Positions 1 through 6,967 of a stretch of DNA of 46,620 nt are shown here, piece after piece. Positions within the stretch are counted from its first letter, which is position 1, and every line of letters begins with the position of its first letter. Position numbers and translations under genes: made by a program. The notes beneath the pieces are model-generated. The model saw only the letters and a program-made list of their open reading frames with translations, did no database searches and was not told the DNA's origin. This DNA comes from an uncultured Lachnospiraceae bacterium (GTDB taxonomy: Bacteria > Bacillota > Clostridia > Lachnospirales > Lachnospiraceae), in the NCBI GenBank assembly GCA_944383835.1, contig CALWRE010000092.1:1-46620 (forward strand). Direction: 5' to 3'.

Positions 1-1429
1 CCAGATCCTGGTATTTCTGCCGCATTTTTTCCATGGCCGCCGCACTGTCCTGGAGCTGGCGGAGCTTCTTGTCCGTCAGTGCGCCTGTATCCCCCATCCT
101 TCCATACAGCCGCAGATCCCGCTGCAAGCCAAAGCAAATGGATGAAATTTCCACATCCCGTATGAGTTTCTCGGAAATTTCCAGTATTTTCTTTTCCTCA
201 TCGCTGTTTTCCTGCGCATACAAGCCATTTACGCAAAACCGGAGAGCCTGTAAAATCCGCCCGCCCGTATGGGCGTCATCCGGGGAAACGGCGGGCAGCT
301 GTCCCAAAAATGTCTCTGCCTTCGCCAGAATCCGGACATTCTCATCACGATTCTTTGGCTGCATCAGTTCCCGCTGTACGGACAGAAGAATATCCTCCTC
401 CCGCTCTTCCCCGGCAGCTGGCTGCCGGCTTTTCTCAGACAAACGGTGCGCCAGGCAGCGCCCTGCAAAACAGCTCTTATCCCGGTAAACCAGGCCGGAA
501 GGAACCGAACCCAAATGGAGAGAAGCAAGGTTTCCTTCCCCTTTCGTTCTCCCCTCTGCTTCTGCTTTCCGGCAGCGGCTTAGAACTTCCTCCCACACCC
601 GTTCGTCCTTCAGGCATTCATATAGTTCCCGAAACTGCAGACCGCAGGACAAGGAGAAGCCGCGAAGAAACGACCCCGCATCCGAAGTTCCGTCTTTTTC
701 CAAAGGCCCCTGCAGCTGTTTTGTCAGATAAACGGCAGCCGCCCTCCTGTCCGCCTCATCCAGGAACCTGTCCTGGTCCAGCATCACATGGAGAAGAATC
801 GATTCTATCCTTTCCCTCGAAAAAGTATTGAGAAAAACACAGGCCTCGCCCTTATTATTCCAAATAGACGGATACAAAGGGCGTACCGCCCCGCCCCGCA
901 CATCGGTGATTCCCGCGTCCCGGAGCATGGAAAATACCGGGCTGTGCAGCAGGTAATCCCGGCTTTTTTCCACAACAGGAGAAACCTTAAGGACAAAGAT
1001 CCCCGTCCTCCCCCTGCAAGAAGCGATATTCTCCAGCACACTGCCCCAGCCGGGCTGCGCAAGCACTTCGCAGAAGTCCTCCAGCGGACAGATAAACGCC
1101 GCAGCCTCGCTTCGCTTCAGCTTCAGCTGCTGAAGCAGAAAATCTCCCTGTTCCGCCATATCGGCATCCGTCTGCTTATCCGCCCCCTTCAAAAAGCTCC
1201 TTATCTTCGCAATTCCCCGCGCAGGCGCGAAATCCCTGCCTTTCACATCTCCATAGGTTTTTATCGTAAAGGTTTTCCCCGCCGCGCCAAGAAAATAAAC
1301 CGTCTGATAGCTCTCGTGCAGCTTCAGCCACAGATACTGGTTCAGTTCAAGCTTCAGCAGATCATCGCCATAATATGTGTCCGTCTCGTCGGCAAAAACC
1401 AGATGGAGCAGCTCTTTGGATGAAAACAA
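1..1429 (-). CDS. Unidentified large protein, C-terminus cut by window edge
   Basis: The minus-strand frame is open for at least 476 codons and has no stop before the window ends, so the C-terminus is missing. I chose a TTG start at 1429 because a purine-rich ribosome site (AGGGGGAG) lies just upstream and no ATG or GTG is available between the preceding gene's stop and this point. The gene begins 34 nt after that stop, so it is the fifth cistron of the operon. I do not recognise the family. The first ~170 residues alternate hydrophobic strands and helices: an acidic ADETDTYYGDD stretch, then a LELNQYLWLKL helix, and a later strand-helix pair around GRTGIFVLK. This resembles the alpha/beta domain that precedes ATPase domains in some bacterial proteins, but no Walker motif is visible in the part seen. 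The rest is mostly helical and charged. Coding status is strong and function is unknown. Confidence 0.75.
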   Translation of the reverse strand, partial: MFSSKELLHLVFADETDTYYGDDLLKLELNQYLWLKLHESYQTVYFLGAAGKTFTIKTYGDVKGRDFAPARGIAKIRSFLKGADKQTDADMAEQGDFLLQQLKLKRSEAAAFICPLEDFCEVLAQPGWGSVLENIASCRGRTGIFVLKVSPVVEKSRDYLLHSPVFSMLRDAGITDVRGGAVRPLYPSIWNNKGEACVFLNTFSRERIESILLHVMLDQDRFLDEADRRAAAVYLTKQLQGPLEKDGTSDAGSFLRGFSLSCGLQFRELYECLKDERVWEEVLSRCRKAEAEGRTKGEGNLASLHLGSVPSGLVYRDKSCFAGRCLAHRLSEKSRQPAAGEEREEDILLSVQRELMQPKNRDENVRILAKAETFLGQLPAVSPDDAHTGGRILQALRFCVNGLYAQENSDEEKKILEISEKLIRDVEISSICFGLQRDLRLYGRMGDTGALTDKKLRQLQDSAAAMEKMRQKYQDL

Positions 1430-1463
1430 TTGCTCTCCCCCTTTCTCCGGCCCTCTGTCCCTT

Positions 1464-1955
1464 TCAGCGGAACAAAGGTTCTTTTTCGGACCGTGTGCTG
1501 CCGGAATCGTTGCGCAAAAGCAGGCTGAGATTCAGTTCTTCATCGATCTCCGCTCCCAGCTGCTGCAGCTCGGCCTCCATTCGGTTGGGCACCTTGACCG
1601 TATGCACCTCCTCCTGTCCGTCAACCTGGACGGATACCTTCACCGCAAGCTCCTTTGCCTCAGGAATTCTGGCAAAGCTTTCCTCCAGCCATACTGCCGC
1701 CTCCCTCAGCTTTTTCCCTGTGCCAATGGCGACGCGTTCTTCCCTGTCCAGGACAATCGTACCTCCGTCGTCCTTCCACCGATACGTGATTACGCCAACG
1801 CTCACCCTCTCCAAAAAGCTGTCCCGATAGCTGTCAATGGCAGGCTTCATCGTCCTCAGCCCTTCCTGCGGATCACCCGGAAAATGAATCTTAGGAAATT
1901 TGCAGACGGGGCACTCGTTTCCATCATGAACCTTCCCGCATACAATACATTTCAT
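1464..1955 (-). CDS. Zinc-ribbon protein of the HerA/Hsp70 operon
   Basis: This protein has 163 residues. The N-terminus carries a CxxC-x8-CxxC zinc ribbon (C3, C6, C15, C18). A middle region, about residues 45-135, looks beta-rich and regular (GVITYRW, REERVAIGTG, LAVKVSVQVDGQ), and the tail is short and charged. The ATG at 1955 directly abuts the TAG of the coiled-coil gene upstream, so the two are very probably translationally linked. I cannot assign a family beyond the zinc ribbon. Within the operon it could be an adaptor that binds nucleic acid or a protein partner of the Hsp70-like or HerA-like ATPase, but that is inference from context only. Confidence 0.8.
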   Translation of the reverse strand: MKCIVCGKVHDGNECPVCKFPKIHFPGDPQEGLRTMKPAIDSYRDSFLERVSVGVITYRWKDDGGTIVLDREERVAIGTGKKLREAAVWLEESFARIPEAKELAVKVSVQVDGQEEVHTVKVPNRMEAELQQLGAEIDEELNLSLLLRNDSGSTRSEKEPLFR

Positions 1956-3566
1956 CTATCTTTCCTCCAGCCTTACGCTCTGAGCGCATTCCATCAGTTC
2001 CAGACGCAAAGACTCTATGGCCTCGGCCAGGTCCTGCATTCCCTCTTTCATCCGGCCGGACAAATCGGCCGTTCCCTGCGCCGGCGTCCTTCCCAGGCTT
2101 CTCTCCATAATCCCCAGGCTCTGCTCCAGACGGCTGCGCACTCTGCAAAGCAGCTGAAGCCTTTCCTGGCAAGCGGCAAGGCCGGCGGCAAAGTCCTCCC
2201 CGGCAACAGGCTCCAGCTCACGCAAAACCGCGGAAAGTTCCCGATCCGTCTTCCAGCCCTGCTCCCTCTGCTTCTCCAGCTCGCTGCGCCGCGCCTGCTT
2301 TTCTTCGATGGCTGCGTTGCCGGCTGCAATCTCCTTCTCCATATCGGCGCACTCTTCCTGCACCTTTTTCAGCGTCTCCATCTGCTCTTCGATCTGACGC
2401 TTATAAATCTCATACTTCTGCATATCGGTCTTGCCTTGGAGATCTTTCAGCTGGCTGTCCAGGCGCTCGACCTGGGCGCTCTTGTTCTTATAATCCGCTG
2501 TCAGCGTATTATAAGTATTATTGTAGTCGGCGCAGGTCTTCTCCGTCGTTTCGATCTGCTTCTCCAGCTGTGCGCAGTCCTCCCGGAGATGCTTGATTTC
2601 TGCCTCCAGCCGTCTCTGCTTCTCCTCCAGTTTTTCCCTGCGCTCCTCTTCATCCGCCTGCTGCCGTTCCCTCTCGGGGATCTGTTCATTCTCCAGCCGG
2701 GCGACCTCGCTCTGCAGGCTTCCCAGGCTCTGTGTAACCTCCCTCAGGCTTTTTTTCAGTTCCTCCTCCCGCCCCTGCAATGCCAGGCTCTGCTGCCGAA
2801 TGGCCTCCAGTTCTTTTTTCTTCTGTTCCAGGCCCCCGCCCTTCTTTTCCAGCTCCAGCCGGATAGCGGCTATCTCCGTCACCATCTCGTCATGCTGTGC
2901 AGCTATCTTTTCCAGCTCGTCTGCCGCCCCTTCCCTTTCCAGGCGGGCACGGCGAAGCTCCTCCAGCACCGGCTCAATCTGCTTCGTGCGATAGGTTTTC
3001 TCTTCTTCCTTCAGCCGGAGCAGCTCGGCTTTCATCTCCTCCAGCTCCCCTGCAGCCTGCCTCTGCTTTTCTATGCTTAAATCCCTCTCCTTTTGCAGGG
3101 CGCAAATCTGCTCTTCGCAGGTGCGTGCGGCAGCGATCTCCCGGCCAGCCTGTTCCTCGATATTCTCCAGCTGTGTCCGCAGATCAGCGGATTTCCGTTT
3201 CTTTTCCGCAAGATCTGCCTGCTTTTCCTTTAGCTGCGACTGAAAGCCGGCGAGCTCCTCCCCTTCCTTCGCAAAGCTCTCCAGCTCCTCCTCCGTCCGT
3301 TTCAATGTCTCCATCGTCTTATCCAGACGGCTGCGGTTCCGGACAAGCTCGTCGCTTTTGTCCTCGTAAATCTGGCGGATCGTCTGGCAGAGCCAAACCA
3401 GTTTCGTGGGCAGCGTCTCGCTTCCGGATGGACAGGCGCTCACATCCTGACCCGTCATGTCCTCAATATCATCGAACAGCGATTCAATCATGCAGACCGC
3501 CATATAGACCGAAGGCTCTTCCCCGGCATTATTGGCAATAGACGCTTTCAGACGGCTGAATTCCAT
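1956..3566 (-). CDS. Long coiled-coil protein of the HerA/Hsp70 operon
   Basis: This protein has 536 residues. A short globular N-terminus (about 1-70, with VYMAVCMIESLFDDIEDM) precedes roughly 400 residues of almost uninterrupted heptad-like Glu/Lys/Gln/Leu sequence, which is characteristic of a coiled coil. The C-terminal ~80 residues are again helical (MERSLGR, MQDLAEAIESLRLELM). There is no Walker A motif, so it is not an SMC or Rad50 ATPase despite the look of the rod, and no signal peptide or membrane segment is visible. The ATG overlaps the stop of the Hsp70-like gene by one base (TAATG), and the stop abuts the zinc-ribbon start. It is probably a structural or scaffolding partner of the operon's ATPases. 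The family is unknown to me. Confidence 0.85.
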   Translation of the reverse strand: MEFSRLKASIANNAGEEPSVYMAVCMIESLFDDIEDMTGQDVSACPSGSETLPTKLVWLCQTIRQIYEDKSDELVRNRSRLDKTMETLKRTEEELESFAKEGEELAGFQSQLKEKQADLAEKKRKSADLRTQLENIEEQAGREIAAARTCEEQICALQKERDLSIEKQRQAAGELEEMKAELLRLKEEEKTYRTKQIEPVLEELRRARLEREGAADELEKIAAQHDEMVTEIAAIRLELEKKGGGLEQKKKELEAIRQQSLALQGREEELKKSLREVTQSLGSLQSEVARLENEQIPERERQQADEEERREKLEEKQRRLEAEIKHLREDCAQLEKQIETTEKTCADYNNTYNTLTADYKNKSAQVERLDSQLKDLQGKTDMQKYEIYKRQIEEQMETLKKVQEECADMEKEIAAGNAAIEEKQARRSELEKQREQGWKTDRELSAVLRELEPVAGEDFAAGLAACQERLQLLCRVRSRLEQSLGIMERSLGRTPAQGTADLSGRMKEGMQDLAEAIESLRLELMECAQSVRLEER

Positions 3567-5314
3567 TATATCGTCACCTCGCTTATCGCAGTCAGATCAA
3601 ACATCTCCGAGTAGCTTTCCAGCGGAATCTCAATCCCTTTATCCGCAGCCTGCAGGCCAAACCTCTGGCTGGGCACGACATGGAAAGAAACCACCTCGTT
3701 CTCATCCATGGAAAAGCCGCAGTTCCAAAATCCCAGCTGAGGCAGCTGTTTCAGCCGCTCCAGCATCACCGGGCGCAGCCGCATAGGGGCGCCGCGGTTT
3801 ACGCTCTCATCAAAGCCGATGACAAAAGAATCAATATTGCCATAGAGCGCTCCCCAGGTCGTGCGGTTGCCAGGCTCATCCGTCTTTTCTTCATCCTCCA
3901 GGATGAAATAAGGGTGCCCGGATTTAATCATCTGATGATATTTGATGGCATAATAGAATTTCTCCGGACGGCCGTCGCTGCTGCGGGTAAATAAGCCGAT
4001 GGAATAGCGGGCGGTCTTTTGCAGCACCACCTTGCCGGCCGCCAGAAGCGCCGCCCCCAGCGAAATGGCCTGCTCCCTTTTTTCCGCCGTGATATTCTTC
4101 GTGCGCAGATCAATGTTGGCATTTGCATCCAGGCGGTAAATCTCCGCCACCTGCTGCTTGACCAGGAAGAAGGAGCCAAAACCGCCCACCAAAGCAATTT
4201 TGAAATCGTCCTGGATTCCCGTCTCCGGCTCGCAGGGATCTTTACCGATGCATTTTTGCACCTTTTCATTGATCTTCCGGATTTCCTCACTCAATACCTG
4301 CTCGATCGTCTCCTGATAGGCCAAAAACAGATGCTGAAAGGTTACCGGCACCTCTTCCTCGTCATATTCCAGGGTGATAAAATCGATGGCTTCCTCCCGG
4401 AAAATCCGGCTGATCTTGCGGTAAGAGCCGTAGGCCCCAAACGTATCTTCTATATCCCGGATCCGTTCGGCGGATTTCAGCTGGCTCTCCAGATCCCGCA
4501 CCGCCGCAATGAAATCCGGGGCTGCGTAATCCGGGCTCTCCCCCTGGCCGACCACCCCCGCATCCTGCAAAGCATGCGTAACCACGCTCTGCATATAAGC
4601 GATGCCGGCGCTGCCAATGGTTCCGCCGCCCGACTGGTCCGGATGATTTTCACCGGCTCCTCCGCCGTCCACATAGCGGATCTCCATAATCCCCTGCTGG
4701 TCGGAGGTCACCTTCGTCAACGTAATATCCAGAGTTCCTCCGCCGTAATCGATCAGAAGCAGATGGCCGTTAAAATTCCTGCCGGTCTGTTTTTCATAAT
4801 TGTAAGCAAAAAAAGCGCTGGCTGCCTCCGGTTCCGTGACTATCTGGACATGTTCTACCGGAATGTCAATATCATTGATCAGAATATCCCGCAGGATCAG
4901 CCGCCCATCCAACGTAGCGACCTTACTGCTCCAGATCTCCGGAACGCAGATAACCAAGTCCTCGAAACCCTTATCATTCTCCCTGCGCAGTACGCCGTCC
5001 AGTACGGACTCCAGGAAAAGCTTGGTGATGCGGCGCGGCGTATACTCTTCGTCGTAGCCCCTGCGTCTTAGCATCTCCTGGTTCGTCTCCGTCAGAAGCA
5101 TCTTAAAAGCCTCGAAAATACGGACTGTTTTTTTCCCTGCCTGGTCCTTAGCCCCCTTGCCGCAGGTGATCTGCCCCTTTTTGGAAACGCTGACCACGGA
5201 AGGGATGCTGGCCGGCTCTCCTTCTGAAAAAGTAATGGCCGTTACATGATTCAAAATCTCGTCATATTTCGACACGGTCGAGTATGTACTCCCAAAATCA
5301 ATTCCAATTTTCAT
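3566..5314 (-). CDS. Hsp70-like (DnaK-fold) ATPase with divergent C-terminus
   Basis: The gene encodes 582 residues from the ATG at 5314, where the actin/Hsp70 phosphate-1 motif begins immediately (MKIGIDFGSTYSTV) and GGGGAGAG lies upstream. The upstream in-frame extension lacks this support. Phosphate-2 is DYGGGTLD (about 189-196), the connecting TEPEAAS segment precedes it, and the adenosine motif is LVGGFGS (about 375-381), so an Hsp70-type nucleotide-binding domain is clear. After about residue 400 I see no recognisable substrate-binding domain. Instead there is an aromatic, acidic ~170-residue region (FYYAIKYHQMIKSGHPYF, later FWNCGFSMDENEVVSFHV). It is therefore not DnaK and not part of a dnaK-dnaJ-grpE locus. 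The start overlaps the HerA-like gene's stop as ATGA, and its own stop overlaps the next ATG. It probably acts as an ATP-driven switch with the neighbouring proteins. Confidence 0.88.
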   Translation of the reverse strand: MKIGIDFGSTYSTVSKYDEILNHVTAITFSEGEPASIPSVVSVSKKGQITCGKGAKDQAGKKTVRIFEAFKMLLTETNQEMLRRRGYDEEYTPRRITKLFLESVLDGVLRRENDKGFEDLVICVPEIWSSKVATLDGRLILRDILINDIDIPVEHVQIVTEPEAASAFFAYNYEKQTGRNFNGHLLLIDYGGGTLDITLTKVTSDQQGIMEIRYVDGGGAGENHPDQSGGGTIGSAGIAYMQSVVTHALQDAGVVGQGESPDYAAPDFIAAVRDLESQLKSAERIRDIEDTFGAYGSYRKISRIFREEAIDFITLEYDEEEVPVTFQHLFLAYQETIEQVLSEEIRKINEKVQKCIGKDPCEPETGIQDDFKIALVGGFGSFFLVKQQVAEIYRLDANANIDLRTKNITAEKREQAISLGAALLAAGKVVLQKTARYSIGLFTRSSDGRPEKFYYAIKYHQMIKSGHPYFILEDEEKTDEPGNRTTWGALYGNIDSFVIGFDESVNRGAPMRLRPVMLERLKQLPQLGFWNCGFSMDENEVVSFHVVPSQRFGLQAADKGIEIPLESYSEMFDLTAISEVTI

Positions 5315-6870
5315 TTTGCTCTCCCCTCCCCTTTTGTATCCTGCTCTTCCAAGCTGCTTTCTTCCCTGAGAAGCTGCCAAAACGCTCTGTCGCGGATCCT
5401 CTCCGGCTCCTCCTGGGACAGCCGCACTACGCTCTCATGCTTGCCGAGTCTTCGGATCGCCGCGCACAGCCCTGCTCCCTTCGCACTTTTGGGCGGCAGC
5501 TTGAATACATATTCCGCCTCCCGCTGTTTTAAATCGCTTACATTATGAACAACCCAAGTCAGCACATAGCGGGAATAGTCCTCGTCATCACCGGCAAAAT
5601 GGGAAAGGCTCTGGGTGGAGAGCATCACGCCCACGCCAAATTCCCTCCCCTCCTTCATAATCTTGCGCAGAGAAGGGAACCCCTGATCCATGATGCTGTC
5701 CGCTTCATCCACTAAGATCAGACTGCGCAGCTGCCGGTACCGCCCATCCGTGCGGCTGGAACCGCTGGCATGCATCCAGGAATAAATCTGATCCAAAGTA
5801 ATGGCCGCAATCAGATTTTGTATATCGGAATCGAAGCCGGACAGGTCTATTACCGTAATGCCGTTCAAGACAGCAGAAAGGGGGCTGGCCGCAGAAGGCC
5901 TGTCTTCAAATAGACGGAACTGCCAGAGTTTTCCCATGGCTGCAGCGAGAGAATCTGCCATCTTACCGGAGGTTTCCTTTTCATAGATCCGGTATACCTG
6001 GTCAAAGGTAGGTGCCAGCCGCTTCCATGTCTCCGGCTCATCCGGGCGTATTCCCTGCGCGGCATAGGCCTTCAAAATACAGTCAAAAAGGAACTGCTGC
6101 TGCTTGGGACCCAGACGAAAGATCCGGGAAATCGTATCCTTAAAGCCATTGGCCGTATGTACGGGAAGAAGAGGGCGAAACGCCTCCGTACGGTAGAGGG
6201 CAAGAGGATTGTAAGGCAGACGGTATGGTTTAAGCACCCGCGCATGCACTGCCTGCACAAAATCCGCCTTGGTCTCGTTGTAATCGCCCTTATAATCAAA
6301 AATCAGGACGCCCAGCCTGCTGCCATTATAATTGTCCGGCTGCTGCCTGTAGAGCTGGGTCACCACCGCCTTGGTAAACTGCGTCTTACCGGTGCCCATG
6401 GTTCCAATGATGCCCATATTGGTATGGAACACCTGGCTGGTATCATTGGGACGCCAGACAAGAGGCTCTCCGTCCTCCATTCTGTGCCCCAGCAGAATTT
6501 CCATCGAACGAGGCGGCTGGACAGGGGCTGCAGCCATTTCCTGCCTCTCCGGATCCACAGATAGATCCACAGATAAAGCCAGGGCGATGCAATGCTCGCA
6601 GGGCACAGCCGACTTTTCTGCCGGCCTGCGGCAGTCGCAGCTGAATTCCAAAAGCTTCTCCTCTTTCTCATCCAGAATAAGCGCCGGATGATTGACAAAA
6701 TTAAAGCCATCCACAGTCTTGGCACAAATGCGCACCTTGCCGTCAGCGAGCTTCTCCCTGGTTATCTGGGAAAGCTTGTTATTCTTCCAAAACCTTTCCC
6801 CCGCCAGGAATGCCGCCCTATCGCAGTATCCGTCCAACCATTTTCTAAGATCCATATCCTGCATATCCAT
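5311..6870 (-). CDS. SWIM zinc-finger fused to HerA/FtsK-type P-loop ATPase
   Basis: This 519-residue protein is the first gene of the five-gene operon. Residues 78-93 form a SWIM-type zinc finger, CxC-x10-CxH (C78, C80, C91, H93). A HerA/FtsK/VirB4-like ATPase follows: Walker A GTMGTGKT (156-163), a conserved LIFDYKGDY strand (~189-197), Walker B LILVDEA (384-390) and GVMLSTQS (~414-421), typical of DNA-pumping or translocating motor ATPases. The C-terminus is charged. SWIM domains usually bind DNA or protein, and HerA-type ATPases act as hexameric motors; the combination suggests a nucleic-acid motor. The ribosome site at 6870 is weak, and internal ATGs at 6864 and 6855 are alternatives. 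A possible promoter lies about 30 nt upstream. No membrane segments are visible, unlike a true FtsK. Confidence 0.88.
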   Translation of the reverse strand: MDMQDMDLRKWLDGYCDRAAFLAGERFWKNNKLSQITREKLADGKVRICAKTVDGFNFVNHPALILDEKEEKLLEFSCDCRRPAEKSAVPCEHCIALALSVDLSVDPERQEMAAAPVQPPRSMEILLGHRMEDGEPLVWRPNDTSQVFHTNMGIIGTMGTGKTQFTKAVVTQLYRQQPDNYNGSRLGVLIFDYKGDYNETKADFVQAVHARVLKPYRLPYNPLALYRTEAFRPLLPVHTANGFKDTISRIFRLGPKQQQFLFDCILKAYAAQGIRPDEPETWKRLAPTFDQVYRIYEKETSGKMADSLAAAMGKLWQFRLFEDRPSAASPLSAVLNGITVIDLSGFDSDIQNLIAAITLDQIYSWMHASGSSRTDGRYRQLRSLILVDEADSIMDQGFPSLRKIMKEGREFGVGVMLSTQSLSHFAGDDEDYSRYVLTWVVHNVSDLKQREAEYVFKLPPKSAKGAGLCAAIRRLGKHESVVRLSQEEPERIRDRAFWQLLREESSLEEQDTKGEGRAK

Positions 6871-6899
6871 TCCGGGCTCTTGCCCTATGTGCTATGTTG

Positions 6900-6928
6900 T
6901 AAATATTCTACCTAATTTTGTTAGGAAA
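6900..6928 (-). promoter_or_regulatory. Candidate promoter of the HerA/Hsp70 operon
   Basis: On the minus strand TTGCGT is followed after 17 nt by TAGAAT, which matches the sigma-A -10 box at five of six positions. The -35 is poor. It sits between the spoIVB stop and the first gene of the operon, the only intergenic space available for a dedicated promoter. Coordinates are approximate to a few bases. Confidence 0.4.
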
Positions 6929-6967
6929 CGCAAGACAGGATTGGCCATTATTTTGACAACATCTTCC

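Follow-up and report, generated by a model that had tools for sequence, protein, structure and literature searches.

An Hsp70-fold ATPase operon with an optional DptH-type HerA motor in a Lachnospiraceae genome and its relatives: a candidate multi-ATPase recognition complex

Genes at the contig end and the conserved operon

The window analysed here is a 46,620-nucleotide stretch from an uncultured Lachnospiraceae bacterium (assembly GCA_944383835.1, designated G000 and 86.6% complete; contig CALWRE010000092.1, designated C92, positions 1-46620), at the beginning of which five consecutive minus-strand genes, P2, P1, P3, P4 and P5 in order of reading, form the front of a conserved operon of about nine genes. 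P2 (5311..6870, 519 amino acids) combines a SWIM-like zinc finger with a HerA/FtsK-type ATPase of the DptH/DndH type (Pfam, PADLOC and PDB profiles); P1 (3566..5314, 582 amino acids) is an Hsp70-fold ATPase (Pfam HSP70 and hhalign); P3 (1956..3566, 536 amino acids) consists of a conserved N-terminal head of about 100 amino acids and a long coiled coil (tblastn); P4 (1464..1955, 163 amino acids) has an N-terminal zinc ribbon (CxxC..CxxC) and a conserved C-terminal domain (alignment); and P5 (1..1429), which starts with TTG at 1429, is the N-terminal part of a large protein recognised from homologues in relatives. The original prediction, made from the sequence alone, had described five consecutive minus-strand genes, as the open reading frames bear out, and had them joined by ATGA, TAATG or zero-gap junctions. 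Three junctions are of these kinds, the P2 and P1 genes overlapping by ATGA, those of P1 and P3 having one A of TAATG in common at position 3566 and those of P3 and P4 abutting (1956/1955), but the fourth, between P4 and P5, is a 34-base gap. The five-gene size proved to be an artefact of the contig edge: the contig end cuts P5 (476 residues are present, against 494-558 in uncut relatives), and the relatives carry four further conserved genes. On the upstream side, a 97-base gap (6871..6967, minus strand), in which a scan found no sigma-70-like site, separates the operon from spoIVB (TIGR02860), which together with recN, argR, the NAD kinase gene nadK and tlyA makes up a core chromosomal run.

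A scan for P1 in one genome per species returned 32 loci, 15 of which (L002-L016, the source of the uncut P5 lengths) were kept for a full-length P1 match at 41-67% identity, while 17 (L017-L033) matched part of the nucleotide-binding domain only, at 23-37% identity, and were set aside. Gene order in the 15 loci, all from other genomes, was identical wherever the contig reaches, HerA excepted: (HerA), Hsp70-like, coiled coil, zinc ribbon, P5, P6 (one or two copies), P7, P8 and P9. Profile matches across these relatives numbered 14 for P4, 14 for P5, 13 for P6, 11 for P7, 11 for P8 and 10 for P9, and the genes missing from relatives fall beyond contig ends (L004, L005, L006, L011, L012). Since the order is kept in 15 loci from other genomes, the co-occurrence, which the original prediction had named as its check, goes far beyond chance, with HerA as a member that is not always present. 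P6 and P7 gave no match in G000, one of the searches behind this result having matched nothing in any genome and so carrying no weight alone; because the contig ends inside P5, this absence is indistinguishable from an assembly gap.

More distant relatives show variants of this arrangement. P5 comes first in the operon in L052 and L053, followed by Hsp70, coiled coil, zinc ribbon, an apparent membrane protein, a P6-like protein, a helical protein, P8 and a P9-like protein. L054-L056 and L089 are assigned to the family by their P1 profile scores (153-325 bits); L055 and L089 hold Hsp70, coiled coils, zinc-ribbon proteins, a radical-SAM-like gene and an adjoining large protein, which in L055 joins two AAA stretches to a trypsin-like domain, and in L056 the Hsp70 gene adjoins genes for an AAA+ ATPase and helical proteins. 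The radical-SAM-like genes (L055:1582-2232 and L089:6532-7155) were recognised by eye, and Pfam Radical_SAM was matched in 2 of 90 neighbour proteins. The Hsp70 gene of L006 is preceded, at L006:3-1448, by what appears by eye to be the end of a Ser/Thr protein kinase.

P1 scored above the Pfam HSP70 cut-off (E 3.6e-9, residues 3-212), and hhalign against six Hsp70-family proteins gave a probability (Prob) of 99.6 over query columns 4-448 only. The nucleotide-binding domain spans roughly residues 1-446, which identifies P1 as an Hsp70-domain protein, and it contains stretches invariant in the alignment that we take to be the Hsp70 nucleotide-binding motifs. A substrate-binding domain was not detected, the hhalign match stopping at column 448 and the Pfam match at residue 212, as had been foreseen for an Hsp70-fold protein without a recognisable domain of this kind; a very divergent one is possible. 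The last 130 residues or so are conserved among relatives and match no family. A weak match to ParM_N (E 0.056) was also obtained.

The ATPase of P2 is of the type found at the end of DptH and DndH: residues 123-502 matched the DptH ATPase structure PDB 7es4 (E 1.3e-100), PADLOC DndH was matched with E 6e-171, the match being confined to positions 1308-1686 of a model of 1686, and Pfam DUF87 at E 3.3e-10, while identity to the C-terminal part of two annotated plasmid dptH genes, the first of which belongs to a dptFGH operon, was 46.1% and 40.9%. The set thus holds two ATPase types, HerA and Hsp70-fold, as predicted. The SWIM finger that had been proposed together with the HerA motor matched weakly (Pfam SWIM E 0.17; PADLOC SWIM_XIII E 0.0013), with C78, C91 and H93 invariant across the 10 aligned sequences, as are Q420 and the stretches GTMGTGKT and VDEAD, presumably Walker A and Walker B respectively. 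HerA is found in 10 of the 16 type I loci (the window and L002-L016), so it is an optional, not an obligatory, component; it stands immediately upstream of P1 in the window and 9 of the 15 relatives but not in L002, L005, L006, L010 or L015, and L012 is cut by the contig end. Distances between P1 sequences and between P2 sequences across loci correlated moderately (Spearman 0.50, 28 pairs), which is compatible with an old as well as with a recently captured HerA. Just upstream of HerA in L003, a second protein (L003:5279-7042) begins with a SWIM-like region similar to the one in the HerA protein (29% over 109 amino acids); its C-terminal part differs from the HerA protein, appears peptidase-like by eye and has no Pfam match.

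The head of P3 was matched by tblastn in all 15 related loci, weakly in L016 (38.9 bits), and the coiled-coil part varies in length between loci; the coiled coil of about 400 residues announced beforehand belongs to a protein of 536. The predicted zinc-ribbon protein is confirmed in P4, whose four cysteines are invariant in 14 aligned sequences and which matched RUBY_RBDX weakly (E 0.0017). The remaining member of the original five, a large protein that could not be placed, likewise stayed without a family match in Pfam, NCBIfam and PADLOC at any E value up to 1 (among PDB profiles the best reached E 0.033, not significant), but what the window holds is an incomplete gene cut by the contig end. 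A reading of P5 as a degenerate AAA+ protein was dropped (hhalign Prob 0.2 against P8 and 0.4 against P9). P6 and P7 are helical proteins; P6, present in two copies in L008, L009, L013, L014 and L016, gave PDB profile matches of coiled-coil-like appearance (best E 4.5e-5), and P7 gave no significant family or PDB sequence match (best PDB profile E 0.42). P8 is a Cdc48/Vps4-like AAA+ protein (profile against Cdc48/p97 E 1.5e-75, against Vps4B E 6e-39), and P9 is a degenerate AAA+ protein related to it (hhalign Prob 98.3). Another reading, in which the motifs suggested an MIT domain at the P8 N-terminus and a likeness of P6 and P7 to ESCRT-III (endosomal sorting complex required for transport), was dropped at the level of sequence profiles: Pfam found no MIT domain in eight N-terminal P8 fragments and none is listed for the L056 ATPase, and P6 and P7 gave hhalign Prob 0.4 and 0.2 against a profile of 20 PspA proteins.

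Zinc-ribbon-tagged neighbours and a retroelement

Close beside the operon and on its strand, six loci carry genes whose products share an extended N-terminal zinc ribbon (consensus roughly WxCPxCxxxN....CxxCGFDxSxxYxxYPTL), hereafter the tag, on bodies that differ, being RCC1, leucine-rich repeat (LRR), Sel1 or MORN where scanned. L002 has two such genes (LRR in the one scanned), L003 two (RCC1 and Sel1), L004 three (RCC1 and two DUF285/LRR), L005 two with bodies that have no assigned family, L015 five (RCC1 in the one scanned and in two more by eye) and L052 one (MORN). Some of these genomes hold further tagged genes elsewhere, whose bodies include Sel1, RCC1 and RHS repeats. A tag profile found matches at E < 1e-8 in 7 of the 16 system genomes; six of the seven had supplied sequences to the profile, and the other, that of L007, had supplied none and holds four tagged genes. 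The order survey recovered the tag in one of 392 genomes, the system carrier G377, that is, in 1 of 5 order genomes with the system versus 0 of 387 without it (p 0.013); this survey and that for P1 are equal in size and apparently sampled the same genomes, and at most 17 first-look candidates per genome were scored. With G111, G206 and G283 left out, the tag is present in 1 of 10 system genomes not used for the profile (p 0.025).

A comparison of nine paralogue pairs for a constant tag on a faster-changing body showed a contrast that was modest at best (identity of 38-67% in the tag and 28-54% in the body) and was not used as evidence. Directly after P9 in L010 stand three tandem zinc-ribbon proteins (L010:19043-21721), the first with a sub-threshold DnaJ_C-like match (E 7e-5). 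A profile of these three proteins defined a second extended zinc ribbon, which gave a match of E 2.5e-5 in L056 and a weak one of E 0.005 in L055; its first 25 positions or so are also matched by simple zinc ribbons of other loci.

The distant relative L056 carries, beside its Hsp70/AAA+ operon, a reverse transcriptase (RVT_1 E 2e-16), a template repeat and two zinc-ribbon DUF6273 genes (829-1230, 1745-2716 and 3465-4379 of L056, minus strand). Comparison of the template and variable repeats placed 15 of 15 and 20 of 21 differences on template adenines (35 of 36 together; chance 2e-10 and 2e-12). Because a reverse transcriptase is accompanied by adenine-specific differences between template and variable repeats, this element is a true diversity-generating retroelement acting on zinc-ribbon proteins. 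DUF6273 is mentioned alongside diversity-generating retroelements in two papers.

Distribution and proposed role

The operon is rare and sporadic, and occurs mainly in Clostridia-type metagenome genomes. The P1 profile was matched in 5 of 392 order genomes (E <= 1e-40) and 2 of 391 class genomes (E <= 1e-30), the window's own genome included in both, and among 398 phylum genomes in that genome alone; because the listed rows hold scores for no more than three candidates per genome, these counts are lower bounds. P1 matches at E <= 0.001 occurred in 41 of 61 close relatives, all of them, except those in G000 and G004, being DnaK-like, at or below about 42 bits and within the first 223 residues or so. 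At E <= 1e-25, HerA was matched in the own genome only among 146 order genomes. The plasmid records gave three DnaK-like matches to P1 at about 25% identity. IMG/VR held no match to the HerA profile, and two phage records matched P2, one of them a 21-kb faecal record with a dptFGH-like set read from its open reading frames. This record, L102 (MT836308.1), is filed as a phage and shows, by eye, partition and relaxase-like genes; these genes and the DptFGH-like set make a mobile element, not a phage, its probable identity.

We propose, with a probability of about 0.4, that the operon encodes a multi-ATPase recognition complex not described so far, for which a conflict (anti-invader) system is the most likely role. 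Its products would form one cytoplasmic complex, in which the tagged proteins may bind components that are damaged or come from an invader, and may use their zinc ribbons to dock on a scaffold of coiled-coil and zinc-ribbon proteins. The Hsp70-fold ATPase would serve as an ATP-gated assembly switch and not as a folding chaperone, the AAA+ pair of P8 and P9 would remodel or disassemble the assembly, and the DptH-type HerA motor, where present, may grip or move DNA. The proposal builds on the order kept at 15 loci, the DptH-type HerA, an Hsp70 protein with invariant nucleotide-binding stretches in which no substrate domain was detected, the AAA+ pair, the sporadic spread, the tagged neighbours, the L056 retroelement and the sub-threshold DnaJ_C-like match beside L010. 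We infer a defence function from the DptH-type motor, the sporadic spread, the variable binding-type partners, the retroelement and a theme shared with published conflict systems, the comparison drawing on portions of PMC7159879, PMC11090510, PMC10853773 and PMC12839542. A fuller version is unlikely: a so far undescribed form of bacterial intracellular immunity in which a constant Hsp70/Cdc48-type chassis would read changeable zinc-ribbon-tagged binders (propellers, leucine-rich repeats, Sel1, MORN), with the DptH-type motor as optional output and, in one branch at least, a reverse transcriptase that hypermutates the binders. If the proposal is true, bacteria would possess a modular detection machine with interchangeable sensors, and DptH-type HerA motors would be at work beyond phosphorothioate restriction; the set of about nine genes and the tag motif can in any case be searched for.

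Several observations weigh against a conflict role. The core contains no recognised nuclease or other killing enzyme, P5, P6 and P7 being without an assigned family. Variable loci beside known defence genes were to count in favour of such a role, and the sites do vary, but the flanks identified are housekeeping genes (spoIVB-recN-argR-nadK-tlyA in the window, rpoB-rpoC in L009, dnaB-tilS-ftsH in L010) or surface or repeat proteins (L013, L016). When 90 neighbour proteins were compared with PADLOC, the matches listed (25 of 90 families) included generic AAA, reverse transcriptase, trypsin and UvrD-like families, the UvrD-like GajB match being most likely the AddA-like gene of L088 (by eye), with no specific defence system among them and no defence island. 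There is no sign of mobility, since no P1 orthologue was found in a pattern scan of IMG/VR, in 50,697 phage records or in 72,556 plasmid records. Of the 15 type I loci that can be judged, the window among them, 5 have no HerA upstream of Hsp70, and HerA was not seen in the fetched stretches of six distant relatives (L052-L056, L089), which for L054 reach less than 1 kb upstream; in L056, P5, P6 and P7 do not appear and the zinc-ribbon tag differs in type. The tag itself is absent at E < 1e-8 from 9 of 16 system genomes: in G000 the profile matches only the genome's own P4 (E 0.005), in G004 nothing at all, and in the genomes of L006, L008, L009, L010, L013, L014 and L016 weak zinc ribbons only (about E 4e-5 or worse). 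Nor was it found at that threshold in the system genomes G111, G206 and G283, and with these counted, system genomes not used for the profile have it in 1 of 13 versus 0 of 387 (13/400 = 0.03 by hand). Finally, a simple hydropathy scan found a hydrophobic segment in 10 of 26 tagged proteins, which also fits envelope sorting.

Such sorting, in which the tag would be an address that brings envelope repeat proteins to a threading or assembling Hsp70/AAA+ machine and HerA a VirB4-like protein pump, is possible but rather doubtful. Besides those hydrophobic segments, the DUF285/LRR_5, Big_2 and RHS repeat bodies are typical of surface proteins, and the extra proteins of L052 and L053 have apparent membrane segments by eye; however, 16 of the 26 tagged proteins are without a hydrophobic segment, the motor matches the DptH ATPase at E 1e-100, and no secretion channel gene was noticed. 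Were it correct, bacteria would be employing Hsp70 and Cdc48-type ATPases in an unusual way. An ordinary operon for stress or protein quality, built round a specialised chaperone, could likewise account for the Hsp70, the Cdc48-like AAA+ protein, the sub-threshold DnaJ_C-like neighbour and the housekeeping flanks at three loci, but appears quite improbable for genes as rare as 5 of 392 order genomes, with an undetected substrate domain in P1 and a HerA DNA motor in 10 of 16 type I loci.

A reading as a module for segregation or of a mobile element, in which an actin-fold ATPase, a coiled coil and a DNA pump would belong to an integrated element, draws on the Hsp70/actin fold with its weak ParM_N match and on the HerA/TrwB-like pump. 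The chance of this is very small, as no P1 orthologue turned up in the plasmid and phage records or the IMG/VR pattern scan, the sites adjoin different core operons, and neither integrase nor relaxase was noticed in the flanks of L002-L016, where no search was aimed at them and 25 of 91 neighbour Pfam families are listed. It is very improbable, too, that the operon is a divergent form of a defence system already named (DndFGH, CoCoNuT or a HerA capture system). The HerA is indeed of DndH type, and CoCoNuT type III-A, in the portion of PMC11090510 that describes it, combines Hsp70, coiled coil, zinc ribbon, Cdc48-like/HerA ATPases and LRR; yet P2 represents the last DndH domain only, and McrB/McrC, HEPN, vWA, DndF and DndG are unmatched in the core, for which membership in a named system is mostly refuted already.

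Comparison with known systems

Searches of open PubMed Central, a coverage outside which most subscription papers lie, showed no description of the gene set. The original prediction had recognised no named system with this set; PADLOC accordingly returned a strong match for HerA only, but that HerA is closest to the C-terminal motor of DptH/DndH. The likeness to DndFGH/DptFGH lies in the ATPase of P2, seen in the PADLOC, PDB 7es4 and plasmid dptH comparisons alike. DndH, as described in part of PMC10853773, has about 1700 amino acids and eight domains including a restriction endonuclease (REase), whereas P2 has 519 amino acids and consists of a SWIM-like finger and HerA only, the last DndH domain; neither DndF nor DndG was matched among the scanned core proteins. 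The HerA/FtsK capture systems described by Rakesh et al. (2024; PMC10853773) and the BREX-related ones of PMC12839542 resemble the operon in placing a DndH-related HerA in one operon with a second ATPase. In the sections of these two papers that bear on them, the partners are a D5 helicase, Orc/Cdc6, REase or PglZ, unlike the Hsp70, Cdc48-type AAA+ and coiled coil found here without a recognised nuclease, and the main text of PMC10853773 contains neither the term Hsp70 nor SWIM.

The extended operons of CoCoNuT type III-A, judged from part of PMC11090510, share Hsp70, coiled coil, zinc ribbon, Cdc48-like/HerA ATPase and LRR per locus, but their defining McrB GTPase and McrC are unmatched in the core, and among the matches listed for the neighbours, which were scanned in part, neither occurs. 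With the NTP-dependent conflict systems that Kaur et al. described in 2020 (PMC7159879, in part), the operon has in common an Hsp70 without peptide-binding domain, zinc ribbons and repeat-type bodies, and diversity-generating retroelements are named in that paper as well. Those systems differ in being defined by MoxR-vWA or by a double GTPase with GAP1, and no vWA, MoxR or GTPase family, nor HEPN, was among the core-protein matches. For each named system tested, a defining feature is thus unmatched or undemonstrated here, and the multi-ATPase, conflict-type theme itself is a known one.

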